From: Eubacteriales bacterium
GTDB taxonomy: Bacteria; Bacillota; Clostridia; Acetivibrionales; JANLFN01
Direction: 5' to 3'
DNA: 64,000 nt
Assembly (NCBI GenBank): GCA_024655885.1
Contig: JANLFN010000008.1
Location: forward strand, 1-64,000
The notes beneath the pieces were generated by a model that made no database searches, had not been told where the DNA came from, and saw nothing but the letters and a program-made list of their open reading frames with translations. A program made the position numbers and the translations under genes. Positions 1,909-50,413 of this stretch are shown one piece after another. Positions within the stretch are counted from its first letter, which is position 1, and each line of letters starts with the position of its first letter.

Positions 1909-2189
1909 ATCTATTGACCTCTCCTTTTTGGTAAAATTAACCATAAAATATGGTTGAACAATAACAGCAATTAAAGGCAATAAACACAAAAGAAAATTTG
2001 TTTGCCCTCGGCCGGTCTTACGTGAAAATAAAACTCACCTTATTTAATTAAATGACTAAGAAATTTGTGGCTTTTGGAAAAGGTAACAAACCACGGTGCA
2101 ACAACCCAAAAGGGTAGGAAAAATCTTCACCGGCTCGCAGTTTTGCCGCAATTTATTACACATACCACAAGTGCAGATGGGATTAATCA

Positions 2190-2442
2190 CTCAGACTTAT
2201 TTTGTTTTGCAGTCGCCTGCAGTTTTTGTTAAGTCTTAACGGCTGTGACCAGCCGGAAGGTTTCCGCCGAAAGCTTCGATAACCTGCTCCTCCGGTTTCT
2301 GGTTGTCCCCTGCCGGCTGCCGGAAGTGTTTCCGGGCAAAATTGAATGCCGTAAACCAGAACCTATAAACCGGTATTGCAGCCTCCTTCTCCTCGTCAAC
2401 AGGATAGGGATAGGATAGATCCCCATATCCTGTTCTGGCGCT
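2190..2442 (-). ncRNA. glmS ribozyme/riboswitch in the glmM-glmS intergenic region
   Basis: Read on the minus strand, the sequence begins AGCGCCAGAAC at 2442. A 9-bp P1 stem follows (AACAGGATA pairing with TATCCTGTT), then GTTGACGAGGAG, later TTATCGAAGCTTTCGGCGG, then GGTCACAGCCG and a closing P4-type hairpin (GACTTA with TAAGTC). These are the conserved core blocks of the glmS self-cleaving RNA, in order and directly upstream of glmS. By family knowledge, glucosamine-6-phosphate activates cleavage between the A at 2442 and the G at 2441, destabilising glmS mRNA. The arm between the GACGAGGAG block and the TTATCGAA block is about 100 nt, longer than in minimal members, and looks like an expanded P2a-type hairpin. 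The exact 3' limit is estimated. Confidence 0.93.
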
Positions 2443-2540
2443 TTTATTAAGGCTTAATTCAATAGTTCCTCCTTTCGCAGCCTCTTAGCCTAATCCCGCT
2501 CCGAAATGAATCCGCATCACCTCCTTTTCAGCTCTCAAAC

Positions 2541-42992: not shown

Positions 42993-43018
42993 ACCGTCCG
43001 GTCATCGGGCGGTTTTTC
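42993..43018 (+). terminator. Intrinsic terminator
   Basis: ACCGTCC pairs with GGGCGGT (one G-T pair) around a 7-nt loop, followed by TTTTCTTT. It lies about 170 nt after the DUF421 gene. Confidence 0.7.
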
Positions 43019-43075
43019 TTTGCCAGCGTCCGCCTTCGCAGGTGGCTAGGCCTGAGTGGCAGCTCGTGCATAAGC

Positions 43076-45478
43076 TCATGAGATTATTTCGGCAATCCCC
43101 CATGCTTTAATGCGTTTCAGAGGGCTGATAATAGAAATAACCGTCACCAAAAGGATAAGAATCAGTATCAAAACAATCTGCACATAGGGAAACTTCCATA
43201 TAGTAAAGAGTCGTGGCAGAAAATTGTAAATAAGTACCTTTTGCAGAGCTATTCCCATAATACATCCGACAATACATCCTGTCAGGCTGTATGTGAGGGC
43301 TTCGACCAGCACCATTTTGTCAAGCTGCGCACCGGACATGCCTACTGCCCGCATGACCCCCAGATACCGGGTCTTGGATGCCACACTGGTATTCATGGTA
43401 TTGACGATGTTCAAAACGCTGATTAAAGCGATCACTGCCACAAAACCATATATAAAAACCGCCATGGTTAAAAAGTACCCATTAATCTCGGCATTTTTCT
43501 GACGCTGGTCATAAAACGCAATCGAGTCGTCCAGCATCCCCTTGATTTCACTTACCGTCTGCTCCTGCCCCGAACTATCAAGCTGAATGTCGATAATCCT
43601 GATGGTTGATTCTCCCGTCAGCTCGGTAAACAGCTTTTCAGTTGTGATAAAGGTGGTCAGGGAGGGCACCGAATCGTTGAATGGAACGGTACGCAGGATG
43701 GCCATTACGGTCATTTCTTTTGTTCCGTCAGGGGTTTGGATATAAACCTTGTCTCCCAGTTGCAGCGCTGCAGTCTCAATGCTAACACCATTCCTGAGGG
43801 GATGAGCAACTGCTATTATCCCGTGCTTCACATTCAGCTTTTCCTCGGAAAGCTCTCCTTCAATCAAATCCGTTTTTGCCCAGTTGAGCTGGTTTTTGTC
43901 ATAGGAGATCAGCCAGGATTTTTCGGGTGGAATAAACAGCCCGTTATCCTCTACCTGAACATTGCCTATAATTTGTTTGTAAGCATCGGTCAGTCTGGAG
44001 GCATGGAAGGTGGCGTCCACATAGCCGAACATCCTGCCATATACCTTTTTGATACCACTCAAGTCCGAGAGCTTTTCATACAGGCTATTGCTCAAGCCCT
44101 GCTCCGATGTAAGCGAGATATCCGGCGTATAAGGCTTTGTGGTTTTGAGGGAAGAGTGCATGAAATCCACAAATACCTGGAAGCCTAAAAACAGGACGAT
44201 GCTGATGGCAATGGAGCATGACATCAAAAAGAGTGTTTTCTTCTTCACAACGGCGTTGTTAATGCCCATGGCGACTTCTACATGGAACATTTTTGTCAGG
44301 CGCCCCTGCTTCTTCTTTTTGGAAATTTTTATTTCGTTGCTTCCGGTTGCCGCATTGACGGGGGATACCCTTGCCGCTTTTTTTGCAGGCCGAGAGGAAG
44401 CGATAAATACGGTGAATACCCCGATCGCAATTCCTGCGATGGTTCCCGCTATGCTAAAGTTAAACAGAGGCATTTCACCGAAAAGACTTCTGTTGTAATA
44501 CTTAAGTATCCCGCAGCACAGAAAAGCCAGCAGCATTCCCGCAAGCACTCCAATGGGGATTGCCCTCAACGTGATATGCAGCCCTTCTCTCTTGACCAGC
44601 TTTTTTATTTGTGACCGGGATGCGCCGATGCACCTTAAAAGCCCAAACTGTTGCACTCTTTCCATCACTGAGATGTTGAAAGTGTTATAGATCATCATGA
44701 CCCCGGCAATTAGAATGATGCAGAACAAAACCGCCCCTGTTGAATATAGTCCTATGACTGTGTTGCTTTTGCCGTACCCCATAACCGAAAGCAGATATTC
44801 ATTGCGGATGATTCGGCTGTCTGCCAGCTTCAGGCTGCTCTGGATTGCCTTTTGCACATCGTTGATATTGATACCGTCTTTAAACTCAATGAGAAGGCCG
44901 GTGGATTTTTCTGCGTTTACCTCATTGGCACCTGCAATGGATAAATATACACCCGGCATGCCCTTTGCCTTTGTATTGCCATAATCACTGCATATTCCGC
45001 TGATTACAAACTTCTTCTCGGTATTGCCGGCAAAAGTTATCTTGGCCACATCCCCCACTTTCAGATGAAGGTTTTCCGCCGCCCATGCTTCCAGTATCAT
45101 TTCATTTTCCGCCACGGGATATCTGCCTTCCAAAAGGGTAATTTGCATGTTTGGAGCGAATTTTTGGTCCACTGCCGCCAACCTACACTCTTTCCCGTTT
45201 AAATTCCCGTTTCTGAAGGATATCCACGTGCCGGCGTTTTTCACATCCATGCGGCTGGTAATGGCCTGCTTTTCTTCATTGGTGGCATCTTTCACACCCA
45301 GATGATAATTACCATATTCGTGAATCTGCTGAATCTTTTCAAATTGCAGAAAAAAATCCAGCATGGAAAAAATACCAGTCACTAGGGCTACGGACAGGGC
45401 AACACTGATGATGACCAGCCGGGTTTTCTTTTTATGGGCCGTCAGGTATTTGGATGCAAGAGACAGATAGCTTTTCAT
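43076..45478 (-). CDS. ABC transporter permease, MacB/FtsX type
   Basis: The 800-residue protein has the layout of large FtsX-domain permeases: one helix, an extracytoplasmic domain (about 50-235), three helices, a second helix and extracytoplasmic domain (about 410-660), then three helices. FtsX motifs are visible (IGLYSTGAVLFCIILIAGVM, then FGLLRCIGASRSQIKKLV, and RYLGVMRAVGMSGAQLDKMV). Members export peptides, lipids or antibiotics, or act with sensors as in BceAB. The start overlaps the ATPase stop by four bases, so the two genes are coupled. No sensor kinase is adjacent. Confidence 0.92.
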   Translation of the reverse strand: MKSYLSLASKYLTAHKKKTRLVIISVALSVALVTGIFSMLDFFLQFEKIQQIHEYGNYHLGVKDATNEEKQAITSRMDVKNAGTWISFRNGNLNGKECRLAAVDQKFAPNMQITLLEGRYPVAENEMILEAWAAENLHLKVGDVAKITFAGNTEKKFVISGICSDYGNTKAKGMPGVYLSIAGANEVNAEKSTGLLIEFKDGININDVQKAIQSSLKLADSRIIRNEYLLSVMGYGKSNTVIGLYSTGAVLFCIILIAGVMMIYNTFNISVMERVQQFGLLRCIGASRSQIKKLVKREGLHITLRAIPIGVLAGMLLAFLCCGILKYYNRSLFGEMPLFNFSIAGTIAGIAIGVFTVFIASSRPAKKAARVSPVNAATGSNEIKISKKKKQGRLTKMFHVEVAMGINNAVVKKKTLFLMSCSIAISIVLFLGFQVFVDFMHSSLKTTKPYTPDISLTSEQGLSNSLYEKLSDLSGIKKVYGRMFGYVDATFHASRLTDAYKQIIGNVQVEDNGLFIPPEKSWLISYDKNQLNWAKTDLIEGELSEEKLNVKHGIIAVAHPLRNGVSIETAALQLGDKVYIQTPDGTKEMTVMAILRTVPFNDSVPSLTTFITTEKLFTELTGESTIRIIDIQLDSSGQEQTVSEIKGMLDDSIAFYDQRQKNAEINGYFLTMAVFIYGFVAVIALISVLNIVNTMNTSVASKTRYLGVMRAVGMSGAQLDKMVLVEALTYSLTGCIVGCIMGIALQKVLIYNFLPRLFTIWKFPYVQIVLILILILLVTVISIISPLKRIKAWGIAEIIS

Positions 45479-46161
45479 TTCCGCACCCCTTCCAGATCGG
45501 TCACGACGCCGTCCTCCACACTCAGCACACGGTCTGCAAAGGATGTGTAGCTCTGGTTATGCGTAATCATGATGAGGGTCTGATGATACCTCTCCACAGA
45601 TAGCTTCATGAGGCTTACCACATCCCGGCTGTTTTTTGTATCTAAATTGCCGGTCGGTTCATCCGCAAGAATAATGGCAGGCCTTGTCGCTAAAGCCCGC
45701 CCGATGGCCACCCTCTGCTGTTGTCCGCCGGAGAGCTGATTTGGCAGGTGATGCTTTCTCTCTGCCAGCCCCAATACGTCCAGCAATTCGTCAATATAGG
45801 ATTTATCCGGTTTTCTGTAGTCTAAAAGCAATGGCAAAATAATATTTTCTTCCACATTGAGTTCCGGAACCAGATTATATGCCTGAAAGATGAAGCCGAT
45901 ATTCCGCCTGCGGAAGACGGATAAATCTTTTTCCTTCATGGTGAAAATATCCTTTCCGTCCAAGAACACCTTGCCGGAGGTGGGAGTATCCAAGGCGCCC
46001 AGCAGATTGAGCAGCGTACTTTTCCCGGAGCCCGACGGCCCTACGACGGCAACAAACTCTCCTTTGGCAACCGAAAAGGACGCATTTTTTAAGGCGTCCA
46101 CTTTTGTTTCACCTGTCCCGTATGTTTTGCACAAATTTTCGGTAATTAATATATCCATCAT
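45475..46161 (-). CDS. ABC transporter ATP-binding protein, MacB/LolD type
   Basis: The 228-residue ATPase has Walker [17 protein letters not shown]-loop [12 protein letters not shown], signature [15 protein letters not shown], Walker [12 protein letters not shown] and the H-loop MITHNQ. It pairs with the overlapping permease. The ATG at 46161 has GGAAGG 5 nt upstream. Confidence 0.94.
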
Positions 46162-46209
46162 AAACACCTTCCTTGCTATTTTAAAGATGATAGCATAGGA
46201 ATCTTACTC

Positions 46210-46542
46210 TCAGGTGAATCCAATCTTACAGATTTGAAAGCTTTGGAAAGGTAAGATAAAAGGCAGTTCCCCCACTTCCACAGCGCTCCTCACCGCGCAG
46301 CCCGGTTCCATGGTATGGGAGCAATCCCTGTACCTGCATTTCGCCGCCAAACCCTCAATGTCCTCAAAGGATTTGGACAGATTGCCGGAAACTTCGGCGA
46401 ATATCTCTCCATTTTCGCTGACTACTTTATATAAATCACGGTGCTGTTCGGAAACCCTTGCCGGAAACATTCCGTCAGCAGTCCTTTCAAACACCCCGAC
46501 CCAGAAGGGGTCGTCAAAATAAACAGTCAACATGATATTCAT
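46210..46542 (-). pseudogene. Chimeric ORF: YjdF N-terminus joined to RsgA fragments
   Basis: The 110 codons combine pieces of two families. Residues 1-29 (LTVYFDDPFWVGVFER) match the start of YjdF. Residues 30-58 (SEQHRDLYKVVSENGEIFAE) match the N-terminal OB-fold of the ribosome-maturation GTPase RsgA, and residues 60-98 (FEDIEGLAAKCRYRDCSHTM, then EPGCAVR) match its C-terminal zinc-binding region. The whole GTPase domain of RsgA and the rest of YjdF are missing, so enzymatic function is unlikely. The frame is open throughout, with AGGAGG, a consensus promoter and a yjdF-type riboswitch upstream, so it may be expressed. Confidence 0.75.
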
Positions 46543-46569
46543 TTTTCATTCCTCCTGTAAATTTACCTT

Positions 46570-46657
46570 GGAGAGAATGGACAACCCCAGGAGGGCAGGT
46601 TACTGACAGGAATGGTCCTGCACCCGGACTACCAACCGGATCGTGTTTTTATCTTCC
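46570..46657 (-). ncRNA. yjdF-motif riboswitch
   Basis: Between the promoter and the yjdF-like start, the minus strand has conserved blocks of the yjdF motif: GATCCGGTTGGTAGTCCGGG, then TGCAGG, CAGTAACCTGCC, CCTGGGG and TTGTCC. This RNA class binds diverse azaaromatic compounds and controls translation of yjdF genes in Firmicutes. The position directly before a YjdF N-terminus supports it. Limits are approximate. Confidence 0.75.
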
Positions 46658-46663
46658 GCTTAT

Positions 46664-46692
46664 ATTATAATTGGCCTACTTGAATGAGTCAA
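46664..46692 (-). promoter_or_regulatory. Promoter of the yjdF riboswitch
   Basis: On the minus strand TTGACT (46687-46692) and TATAAT (46664-46669) are exactly 17 bp apart, a near-consensus vegetative promoter. Confidence 0.85.
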
Positions 46693-46904
46693 AAAACTTT
46701 TTCAAGTCGGCTTTTGTCTCACTGCTCAGATAATGCCGTTGCATCGGTTATACCAAACTCACGCGTGGTAATACGTCCTTTTAATTCATTAACCGGGACA
46801 TCGGGTCCGACTATCTTGGAAGGTATAATCCGGGGTGGAAGTTGCCAATCACAATCATAAAAATTAAGCACAGTGTATAAAAACAAATATTTATTTAGTG
46901 ATAA

Positions 46905-47765
46905 ACTCATACTCCCGGCCAGATTTCATTAACATATCATATTAAAAAAGTACTGGAAAATGCTATTATTAACAGCAAAGAATTTACAGATTCCATAGAA
47001 GACTATTATTACTATATTGATAGATTGATCAAAGGCTATACCATTGAAAGCAAAGCTGTGCAGTACTATTTGAAAAAAAGGAAATGGAACATCAAGGACG
47101 CCTTTATCATTTACAACTTTTCATCTCCCGGCAATACTCATATTGAAGACAATCTATTTAAGGTTTATTTGTACCGGATTAAGGAAATCATGAAAAAGTC
47201 AATCGTTTTCGAATATGAGAGTTCAATTGTTGCAATCTCAAAATATGACGACTTCCCCTTAACAGACACAAAATTCCTTACCGGCCTTGATGAGTTACTG
47301 GGCAAGTTGGATTTAAAATGTGGGATAAGTATGAGCTTCAGTAATTTCATGAACTTGAAATATTATTACATTCAGAGTAAATTAGCCTTATCAGAGGGCT
47401 TTGAAAAAGATAGCCAGCCTCTACACTATTACTATGGGGACTATTTTCTGGATCATTTATTGCACTCCTTGGACAATTCAACAAGTATGCGAAGCTTATG
47501 CCATCCAAAAATTCTTGAGCTTAAAGAATATGACAACAATAATGATAGCAACAGTGTGGAATGCTTATTTGAGTATCTATTGAATGGCAGAAATAACTCT
47601 ATGACCGCTAAAAAGCTTCATATACACAGAAACACTTTAATGTATAGAATCAATAAAATATTGGAATTTATAGCCATGGATTTGAATGATGAAAGAACAA
47701 TGCTGCATGTTTTGTTTTCATGTATTATTGTGAATTACTTGAATGATTCTTACATTCTTTTCTAA
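46905..47765 (+). pseudogene. N-terminally truncated PucR-type regulator
   Basis: The plus strand is open from 46905 (after a TAA) to 47765. The protein matches the second half of PucR/CdaR regulators, ending in a helix-turn-helix MTAKKLHIHRNTLMYRINKI that resembles SANALHIHRNTMIYRIEKI of the intact regulator at 28142. The N-terminal sensing part is missing, and no ATG with a ribosome site exists at the front; a TTG at 47025 is the first possible start. It lies upstream of a decayed aminomethyltransferase, as if the two once formed a substrate-inducible unit. Confidence 0.75.
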
Positions 47766-48091
47766 CATTTTGCCGTATACAAATCATTCCCGCCATGATA
47801 AAATGATGCTGAAATAAGGCAATAGACGCGTCTTTAGCTGCTTATTATACCATATCAAACAACCGAAAACCGTTAATGGCTTTCGTGCTGGCAGCACATT
47901 GGCAAAGCGCATCGAGAGAGAAACAGCATTGACAATACTTAAAAAGATTTCCGAAAAAATGTGCACATTTAAAAAGTATGTACTTTAGAATGGAAAGTTG
48001 CGGGTTGGATACATTGACCGGTTATGCTATCCCCTGTTTTCCGCAAGAATCAAGTTATTTAAACATATTATATTAATGAGGAATTTTTACT

Positions 48092-48883
48092 ATGGCAAAT
48101 AAAGAAAATTTACTGCAGTATAACCCCGCAATCCCTTATCATGGCGATGCATTCTTACTTACCGCTTTTACGGGAGTTCTCGGGCCGTATTCCTATACAG
48201 GCTGGCGCCATGAAACCATGGCGTGGAAAGAAGGCGCATAATTGCCGGCCCAATTTCTCTTGAGATACTGGAAGCAGCTTCGGGTGACAATTTGCACGAC
48301 CTTGGTTTCCTTGACCATAGGATGTCCAAGATTGCAGGATGCGATGTCCGCATTATCCGTATCGGTATGGCCGGAACTCTTGGCTATGAGGTGCATGGCA
48401 ACATCGAAAATGCCCATGACGTCTACAATGCCATATGGGAAGCCGGCCAACCACTTGGCATGAGAAAACTCGGCCAGCAGGCCTACATGATGAATCACAC
48501 TGAAGATGGCTTCCCGCAGGCATATTATCATTTCTTATATACATGGGACAAGGAAGACGTAGTGGACATTTACAGATCACAGTTTGAAGAAGGCGATCAT
48601 TATCACCTGATAGAAACTCCCAACGACTTCTTTGGCACGACGTTCCATTTTGACAAGGTGCTCAATGATAAGGGAGAGGTCGTTGGCTGCAGTTCCGGAA
48701 GATCAAACAGCTATCACTTCAGAAAGATGATCTCACTGTGCACTATTGACAGAGAGTATGCAAAAATTGGTACAGAGCTTACGCTTGTATGGGGTAACGA
48801 AGGTGAACGCCAAAAGAGCATTAAAGTAAAAGTAGCACGTTTTCCGTATCTCAACGAGAACAGAAATGAACATATTGACTCCT
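48092..48883 (+). pseudogene. Decayed aminomethyltransferase (GcvT-like demethylase)
   Basis: A gene start with GAGGAA and ATG at 48092 encodes a GcvT-like N-terminus (PYHGDAFLLTAFTGVLGPYS, then GWRHETMAWKEGA) that stops at 48241. In another frame the homology continues (GPISLEILEAASGDNLHD, then RIGMAGTLGYEVHG) after a deletion. A second deletion joins AYYHFLYTWDKED to a later segment. The C-terminus (VARFPYLNENRNE) runs straight into the end of the GC-rich ABC permease gene. Related proteins demethylate methoxylated aromatics or glycine-betaine-type compounds with tetrahydrofolate. This copy is non-functional. Confidence 0.8.
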
Positions 48884-50413
48884 CTACTCCGCCACAATAT
48901 CTCTGTGCGAAAAGCAAACCAGACTCAAGCCCACCAATACGGCAGAAACCAGCAGCATAGTAAAAATGGGAGGGAAGGATACCACGACACCGGGGTAAAC
49001 CCACGAAAACGGCGAGAGCGCGAAAACATGATTGCCAATCGCCTTAATCTCCCATAAAAACTCCAGCAAGAGCGACGCGCCGAGCAATCCCCAACTGACC
49101 GGCGCCGCCGCACGGGGCGCAATACCGTACAAAAACGCCGTAACCGAAGCAATCAGCCATACCGCCGGCAGCCGTGCAATGCAGGAAGTAAAATCGCCGA
49201 TGCAATAGCCAAAAAGCGCGATGGCTGCCGCGCTGCCGGTAAAGGCGATAAGCAGGTGACCCGCCACATACCGAGTGCGCGTAGTTGCGCCGGCCAATAC
49301 CAATTCGGCGCGGGTCATGGATTCTTCTTCCCGAATGCGCAATACGGCCATGATCCCATAGGCGGCCAGAACCTGTGTCAGTATATAGGCCAATATGGCG
49401 AGAAACGCGTTTCCGGCTCCGCCCAAAGCGGCCGACAGTCCGGGCAGGAAAGCGGTGCCCTCAAGCATTTTATTGATGCTGGGCATAAGCGAAGCGATAA
49501 TCAGTCCCATCACGGCGTATGCCGCCACCCAGAGGAAAAGCATCCCCCTTTGCAGCCGCCATGCAAGCGCCAACGGGCTTTTGAAGCTTTTACGCCCATG
49601 AACCCTGCCGCTTCGCTCCCTCATATAGCTGCCGCCCATATCCCGCCGGCCGGATAAAACATACGCCATGGCCGTCAGCAGCGCGATTGCCGGAACCGCG
49701 AAGGCAAACAGCAAGAAATTTTCCCCCGCATAGGGGCGCGCATAGGCGCACCAGCCCAGCGGCGTCCACAGCAGCAGCTTCTCGTTTCCGGCGGCATTGG
49801 CGAGGACCTGCCACACAAGGAAAAAGGCAACCGCTCCAAAAGAAAGCCCGCGGGCCAGTCGCGCATTGGGCGCTACCTGCGCCGCAATTGCCGCCATCCC
49901 GGCAAAGCAGCAGCCGCAAAGCGCCGTCGCCAGCCCTGCCACCAACGAACCCGGAGCGGGAAACCCGGCGGCTGCAAACCCCGCCGCCATGGCCACACCG
50001 CCCAGCAGGTTTGCGCCGAATACTTTTACCAGCGCCGCCGTCAGCGGTGCCTTCGGGCCCACGGCACCGGCGCGGAGCAGCTCCAGCCGGCCCTGCTCTT
50101 CATCCACGCGCGTGTTGTTTATAATGAGCACGATGCTGAGAATCGACGTAATAATTGCGGTGGAGAGCCGGATGCGCCAGACGGTCACACCCGCAATGGT
50201 GTTTGCCGCAATAGTGCCCAGCAGCGCGTTGCCCTGATTTTCTGCAATGTAGGTGCTTAGTTGCTCCGGCGTTTGCAGCACCGCCATATTGGATGCCGCC
50301 GCAGCATAGGCGAACAGAAACGGCAGCAAAATCAGTAATAATGTAATCACCTTGTTATTCCGGAGATAGATTTTCAGCAATTTGCCTGTGGCCGCATATT
50401 CCCTTTGTTTCAT
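48884..50413 (-). CDS. ABC-2 type exporter permease (polyketide/antibiotic exporter family)
   Basis: The 509-residue protein has about 12 membrane helices and belongs to the TnrB-like exporter family ('exporter of polyketide antibiotics'). It begins EYAATGKLLKIYLRNNKVIT, and RVDEEQGRLELLRAGAVG and RIREEESMTRAELVLAGATT mark its two repeated halves. Its DNA is far richer in G+C than the flanking genes. Its stop codon lies exactly where the aminomethyltransferase relic ends. The start overlaps the ATPase gene by four bases. Confidence 0.9.
   Translation of the reverse strand: MKQREYAATGKLLKIYLRNNKVITLLLILLPFLFAYAAAASNMAVLQTPEQLSTYIAENQGNALLGTIAANTIAGVTVWRIRLSTAIITSILSIVLIINNTRVDEEQGRLELLRAGAVGPKAPLTAALVKVFGANLLGGVAMAAGFAAAGFPAPGSLVAGLATALCGCCFAGMAAIAAQVAPNARLARGLSFGAVAFFLVWQVLANAAGNEKLLLWTPLGWCAYARPYAGENFLLFAFAVPAIALLTAMAYVLSGRRDMGGSYMRERSGRVHGRKSFKSPLALAWRLQRGMLFLWVAAYAVMGLIIASLMPSINKMLEGTAFLPGLSAALGGAGNAFLAILAYILTQVLAAYGIMAVLRIREEESMTRAELVLAGATTRTRYVAGHLLIAFTGSAAAIALFGYCIGDFTSCIARLPAVWLIASVTAFLYGIAPRAAAPVSWGLLGASLLLEFLWEIKAIGNHVFALSPFSWVYPGVVVSFPPIFTMLLVSAVLVGLSLVCFSHRDIVAE

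Follow-up and report, generated by a model that had tools for sequence, protein, structure and literature searches.

A probable deletion scar joins an azaaromatic riboswitch to remnants of yjdF, rsgA and a histidine kinase gene beside an ABC exporter operon

What does a riboswitch control when the reading frame behind it begins as one protein and continues as another? In the first 64,000 nucleotides of contig JANLFN010000008.1 (assembly GCA_024655885.1, Eubacteriales bacterium; hereafter the window), an open reading frame of 110 codons (46542-46210, minus strand) had been described preliminarily as a chimera of YjdF and RsgA remnants, either decay caught midway or a new small zinc protein under azaaromatic control. 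The locus is made up, in this order, of an azaaromatic riboswitch, the start of a yjdF gene, two pieces of an rsgA gene and the end of a sensor histidine kinase gene. Together they are likely a deletion scar, a pseudogene composed of remnants, and the chimera as such most likely represents an ordinary remnant.

The control elements, all on the minus strand, agreed with the preliminary description. A near-consensus sigma-70-like promoter (TTGACT-17-TATAAT, 11 of 12 consensus matches, 46692-46664) precedes the azaaromatic (yjdF) riboswitch aptamer (46662-46561), and a Shine-Dalgarno (SD) sequence, CAGGAGG (46557-46551), lies 8 nt 5' of the ATG at 46542. The aptamer, the sole copy in the genome, matched RF01764 over its full length (covariance model, positions 1-101, 85.2 bits, E value = 6e-16; gathering score, 45 bits), and its score falls mid-range among those of intact relatives, nearly all of which scored 58 to 99 bits. 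As in RF01764, the strongly conserved positions of the aptamer and P2-P4 are present, and the P4/L4 hairpin carries a complement of the SD, CCUCCUG (46594-46588), which is perfect over 7 nt; it differs in three non-standard pairs in P1 and in that the controlled gene is not an intact yjdF. The SD and anti-SD pairs covary in relatives (CAGGAGG/CCTCCTG, TTAGGAGG/CCTCCTAA and AAAGGAGG/CCTCCTTT), in agreement with the published OFF state, where the SD is paired with the T-loop/P4 (PMC9142559). Sensor and expression platform are thus without clear decay, the P1 pairs apart, and the riboswitch may still turn translation on upon azaaromatic binding. An MFE fold of the leader was set aside, as the aptamer did not appear in it and its z score was only -1.45.

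Next, we looked into the frame itself. Residues 5 to 26 matched positions 1 to 22 of the 132 positions of the DUF2992/YjdF profile (PF11208, 27.8 bits; cut-off, 23.8 bits) and correspond to the first ~20 codons of yjdF (46542-46483). The first ~20 residues, LTVYFDDPFWVGVFER, reach identities of up to about 80% with full-length relatives, and the riboswitch and yjdF piece together share 82% identity over 176 nt with Petroclostridium X23, whose intact gene, unlike the chimera, matches the profile from 1 to 132 (174.8 bits). Residues ~25 to 54 (46470-46381) correspond to the OB-fold start at the N terminus of RsgA (ribosome small subunit-dependent GTPase A), with 55% identity to the genome's own intact RsgA, a long clostridial paralogue on contig C60. 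Residues ~52 to 94 (46386-46264) correspond to the RsgA zinc motif, C-x4-C-x-H-x5-C, with all four ligands kept and 65% identity to the same copy. In the C60 protein, the equivalents of the two pieces (residues 29 to 59 and 272 to 310) lie more than 200 residues apart. The N-terminal piece ends at the position of C60 residue ~59, and the following PAVGDWV...AIIHH part has been deleted, which leaves the OB fold incomplete. A profile search found no GTPase domain (PF03193) in the chimera, compared with a match of 178.5 bits in the C60 copy. In all, the chimera retains little of the YjdF domain, and of RsgA it has lost the final helices, the entire GTPase domain and part of the OB fold. No intact yjdF was found elsewhere in the genome. 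Three intact rsgA genes are present (on C60, 363 amino acids [aa]; on C35, 359 aa; and on C55, 299 aa), so losing one copy was affordable.

The pieces meet at three joints, one more than the two described earlier. Joint 1, from yjdF to rsgA, lies within 46482-46468, its exact base not being resolvable. Joint 2, within rsgA (46389-46375), shows a GG-AA-CT-like similarity between both proxy parents, and joint 3, from rsgA to the kinase gene (46271-46264, near 46270), has GAACTG common to both; the direct parents are gone, and microhomology was judged from the proxies alone. Beyond joint 3 stand the last 14 codons of the kinase gene, its stop codon and three following bases (46270-46223), identical at 47 of 48 bases to the intact kinase end on contig C15 (335,251-335,298; L051 2252-2299), with a longest exact run of 30 bp. 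This kinase DNA is read in a frame other than its own, so that PFILPFQSFQICKIGFT, the ~17 residues at the end of the chimera, is an accidental sequence. The earlier reading of the frame as YjdF followed by RsgA without its GTPase domain thus held in profile and BLAST searches for all but this end, which is out-of-frame kinase and operator DNA. The frame is indeed open across the yjdF/rsgA and intra-rsgA joints. It is kept at two of the three joints, and a fully open frame is one of nine phase combinations; with a chance of about 1/9, openness is weak evidence.

The 48-bp stretch in common with C15 bears on another explanation, in which the assembler swapped paths there and the true genome has kinase and ABC genes in one operon. 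Of the three joints, joint 3 alone has a near-identical repeat at another place in the genome, and a swap at this point would restore the operon of five relatives (G034, G031, G017, X23 and NK3B98), in which regulator, kinase, ABC and permease genes are contiguous; in this genome, the regulator and kinase genes are on C15 and the ABC and permease genes on C57, the contig of this locus. However, an exact run of 30 bp is short compared with usual k-mer sizes, and both C57 (173,637 bp) and C15 (342,593 bp) continue well past the site. Moreover, such a swap would leave joints 1 and 2 in place, as neither has a near-identical repeat in the genome. We therefore regard an assembly error as very unlikely.

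A deletion scar accounts for these observations as follows. Several deletions, with at least three joints of apparent short homology, would have struck an old yjdF/exporter neighborhood and left an intact riboswitch and some 20 yjdF codons fused with two segments of a lost rsgA paralogue and with a kinase end. The three joints are on the same strand, all remove gene parts and two have short strings in common, which fits deletion between short repeats; recombination or replication slippage at such repeats may have made them. Intact parents exist elsewhere in the genome or in relatives, and essential domains have been lost, as is expected of a pseudogene. Two neighboring genes (47025-47765 and 48223-48960) are truncated as well, so the losses extend beyond the scar. 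Ligand binding would then lead to translation of a product of 110 residues in which no domain is complete; the chimera is most likely translated in this way and its product useless. Against a scar, the rsgA pieces are lesion-free and two of three joints are in frame, as a selected protein would also show, and no relative explains how rsgA came to lie beside yjdF, since none of the relatives' loci searched has this arrangement.

We also evaluated the constraint on the rsgA pieces. They contain no stop codon and no frameshift, and all 13 positions that are conserved in 14 intact homologues were kept. Their nonsynonymous distances to relatives were 0.24 to 0.34, compared with 0.17 to 0.46 among intact copies, and synonymous sites were saturated or nearly so, which limits what a dN/dS ratio can say. 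The simplest reading of this lack of decay is that the deletion event was probably recent, although selection for the chimera would look alike. Such selection would be expected if the chimera were a new small zinc protein, made upon azaaromatic exposure and useful, for example, in ribosome binding via the RsgA zinc module. The frame open over two joints, the intact riboswitch and SD, the surviving zinc ligands and conserved positions, and a nonsynonymous distance no higher than among intact RsgA proteins would suit a functional protein. So would a structure model built from a 14-row alignment of the pieces, which has five strands plus helices in the zinc region. But this model has low confidence (pLDDT of 58, against 35 for the single-sequence AlphaFold model), and both models are too weak for a fold search. 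Furthermore, a search of relatives and riboswitch loci found no homologue of the chimera, openness is expected at about 1/9 by chance, the C-terminal end is read in an accidental frame, and, with a recent event, the pieces would owe their conservation to intact RsgA. A new zinc protein is therefore highly improbable. Of the two possibilities first offered, the evidence favors decay caught midway.

The surroundings of yjdF in other genomes place the scar in context. In Petroclostridium X23, regulator, kinase, ABC, permease, a dehydrogenase-like gene, riboswitch and yjdF follow each other on one strand (L156 1820-8630), and in Clostridiales bacterium NK3B98 the order is yjdF, regulator, kinase, ABC and permease (L013 3001-6072 with L117). 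An intact yjdF thus lies one gene downstream of the exporter operon in the former and directly upstream of it in the latter, where no riboswitch scored above the gathering score; the neighborhood of yjdF and exporter is probably old. No other genome of the genus came up in the search for relatives, and 43000-48000 had no match in a plasmid collection. A yjdF alignment of at least 100 residues was seen at 38 of 41 other riboswitch loci, and two more (L154 and L155) aligned only partly or with a gap. In the remaining one, G037 (L078 1383-2475), an independently broken yjdF with an internal lesion stands under an intact riboswitch, fused to the next open reading frame in a frame of 324 codons. 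Elements other than yjdF directly behind the riboswitch are very rare and mutually unrelated (Li et al., PMC4793209).

Downstream of the chimera, on the same strand, the locus resembles the regulator-kinase-ABC-FtsX-permease operon of X23 and NK3B98 in having the ABC exporter ATPase gene (46158-45475; 80% identity to X23 and 78% to G034), the FtsX/MacB-type permease gene (45478-43076; 61% and 56%) and a probable direct-repeat operator; it differs in lacking the regulator and most of the kinase, which are found on another contig. The direct repeats, GTAAGATT-N14-GTAAGATT (46230-46200), lie between the kinase stop and the ABC start and are probably a response-regulator operator of the exporter; the chimera's stop codon falls within the pair. 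The same arrangement between kinase and ABC genes occurs in X23 and G034 and, more weakly, in NK3B98, so that conservation of the operator-like repeat extends beyond a single genus. The exporter's probable operator would thus have survived the deletions, and the regulator-kinase pair on C15 probably acts on it in trans. Behind the intact kinase on C15, one operator repeat and the spacer have been deleted; the collapsed single repeat is followed by a truncated response-regulator receiver-like fragment, and the ABC genes are absent (L051 1900-2300).

The exporter's position raises the possibility of promoter capture, in which the deletions set the ABC exporter behind the riboswitch-led transcript and gave it extra, possibly azaaromatic-influenced expression, with the chimera as a leader frame. 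This is compatible with a scar. About 50 nt separate the stop of the chimera (46210) from the start of the exporter (46158) on the same strand, and a simple terminator scan, which can miss sites, found no terminator-like site in 45900-47100, so read-through from the riboswitch promoter into the exporter genes is possible. An efflux pump would make sense here, as the azaaromatic activators of the riboswitch are antimicrobial (PMC9142559), and two other genomes have yjdF next to the same exporter operon. However, the riboswitch is described as controlling translation of the first gene (PMC9142559), so ligand control of the exporter would have to work via translational coupling or via altered survival of the transcript; in addition, the exporter comes with an SD and a probable operator of its own. 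Taken together, these points make promoter capture unlikely. More doubtful still is that the loss of yjdF, regulator and kinase in place rewired the riboswitch, its transcript leading via the chimeric leader frame into the MacB/FtsX-type exporter; if true, the rewired locus would be a direct azaaromatic-sensor-to-efflux-pump unit.

With a deletion scar as the preferred reading of the locus, the more useful outcome is the neighborhood: in two other clostridia, yjdF stands beside the same two-component-regulated ABC exporter operon. The function of YjdF is unknown (PMC4793209, PMC10987639). Its adjacency hints that YjdF and the exporter may take part in one response to planar antimicrobial compounds; as it concerns few genomes, it is a lead and not a statistical result.

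Other features of the window were also recorded. Upstream of the riboswitch promoter is a 63-codon frame with no family match (46719-46910, minus strand). The truncated gene at 47025-47765 (plus strand) encodes a PucR/CdaR-type regulator that lacks its N-terminal part and has an HTH_30 domain. The one at 48223-48960 (plus strand) is a fragment of a LigM/DesA-type O-demethylase (GCV_T fold), from which the N-terminal ~155 residues are missing and in which further lesions are likely. At 2183-2453 (minus strand), we found a glmS ribozyme (73.1 bits), one arm of which has a large insertion of about 109 nt.
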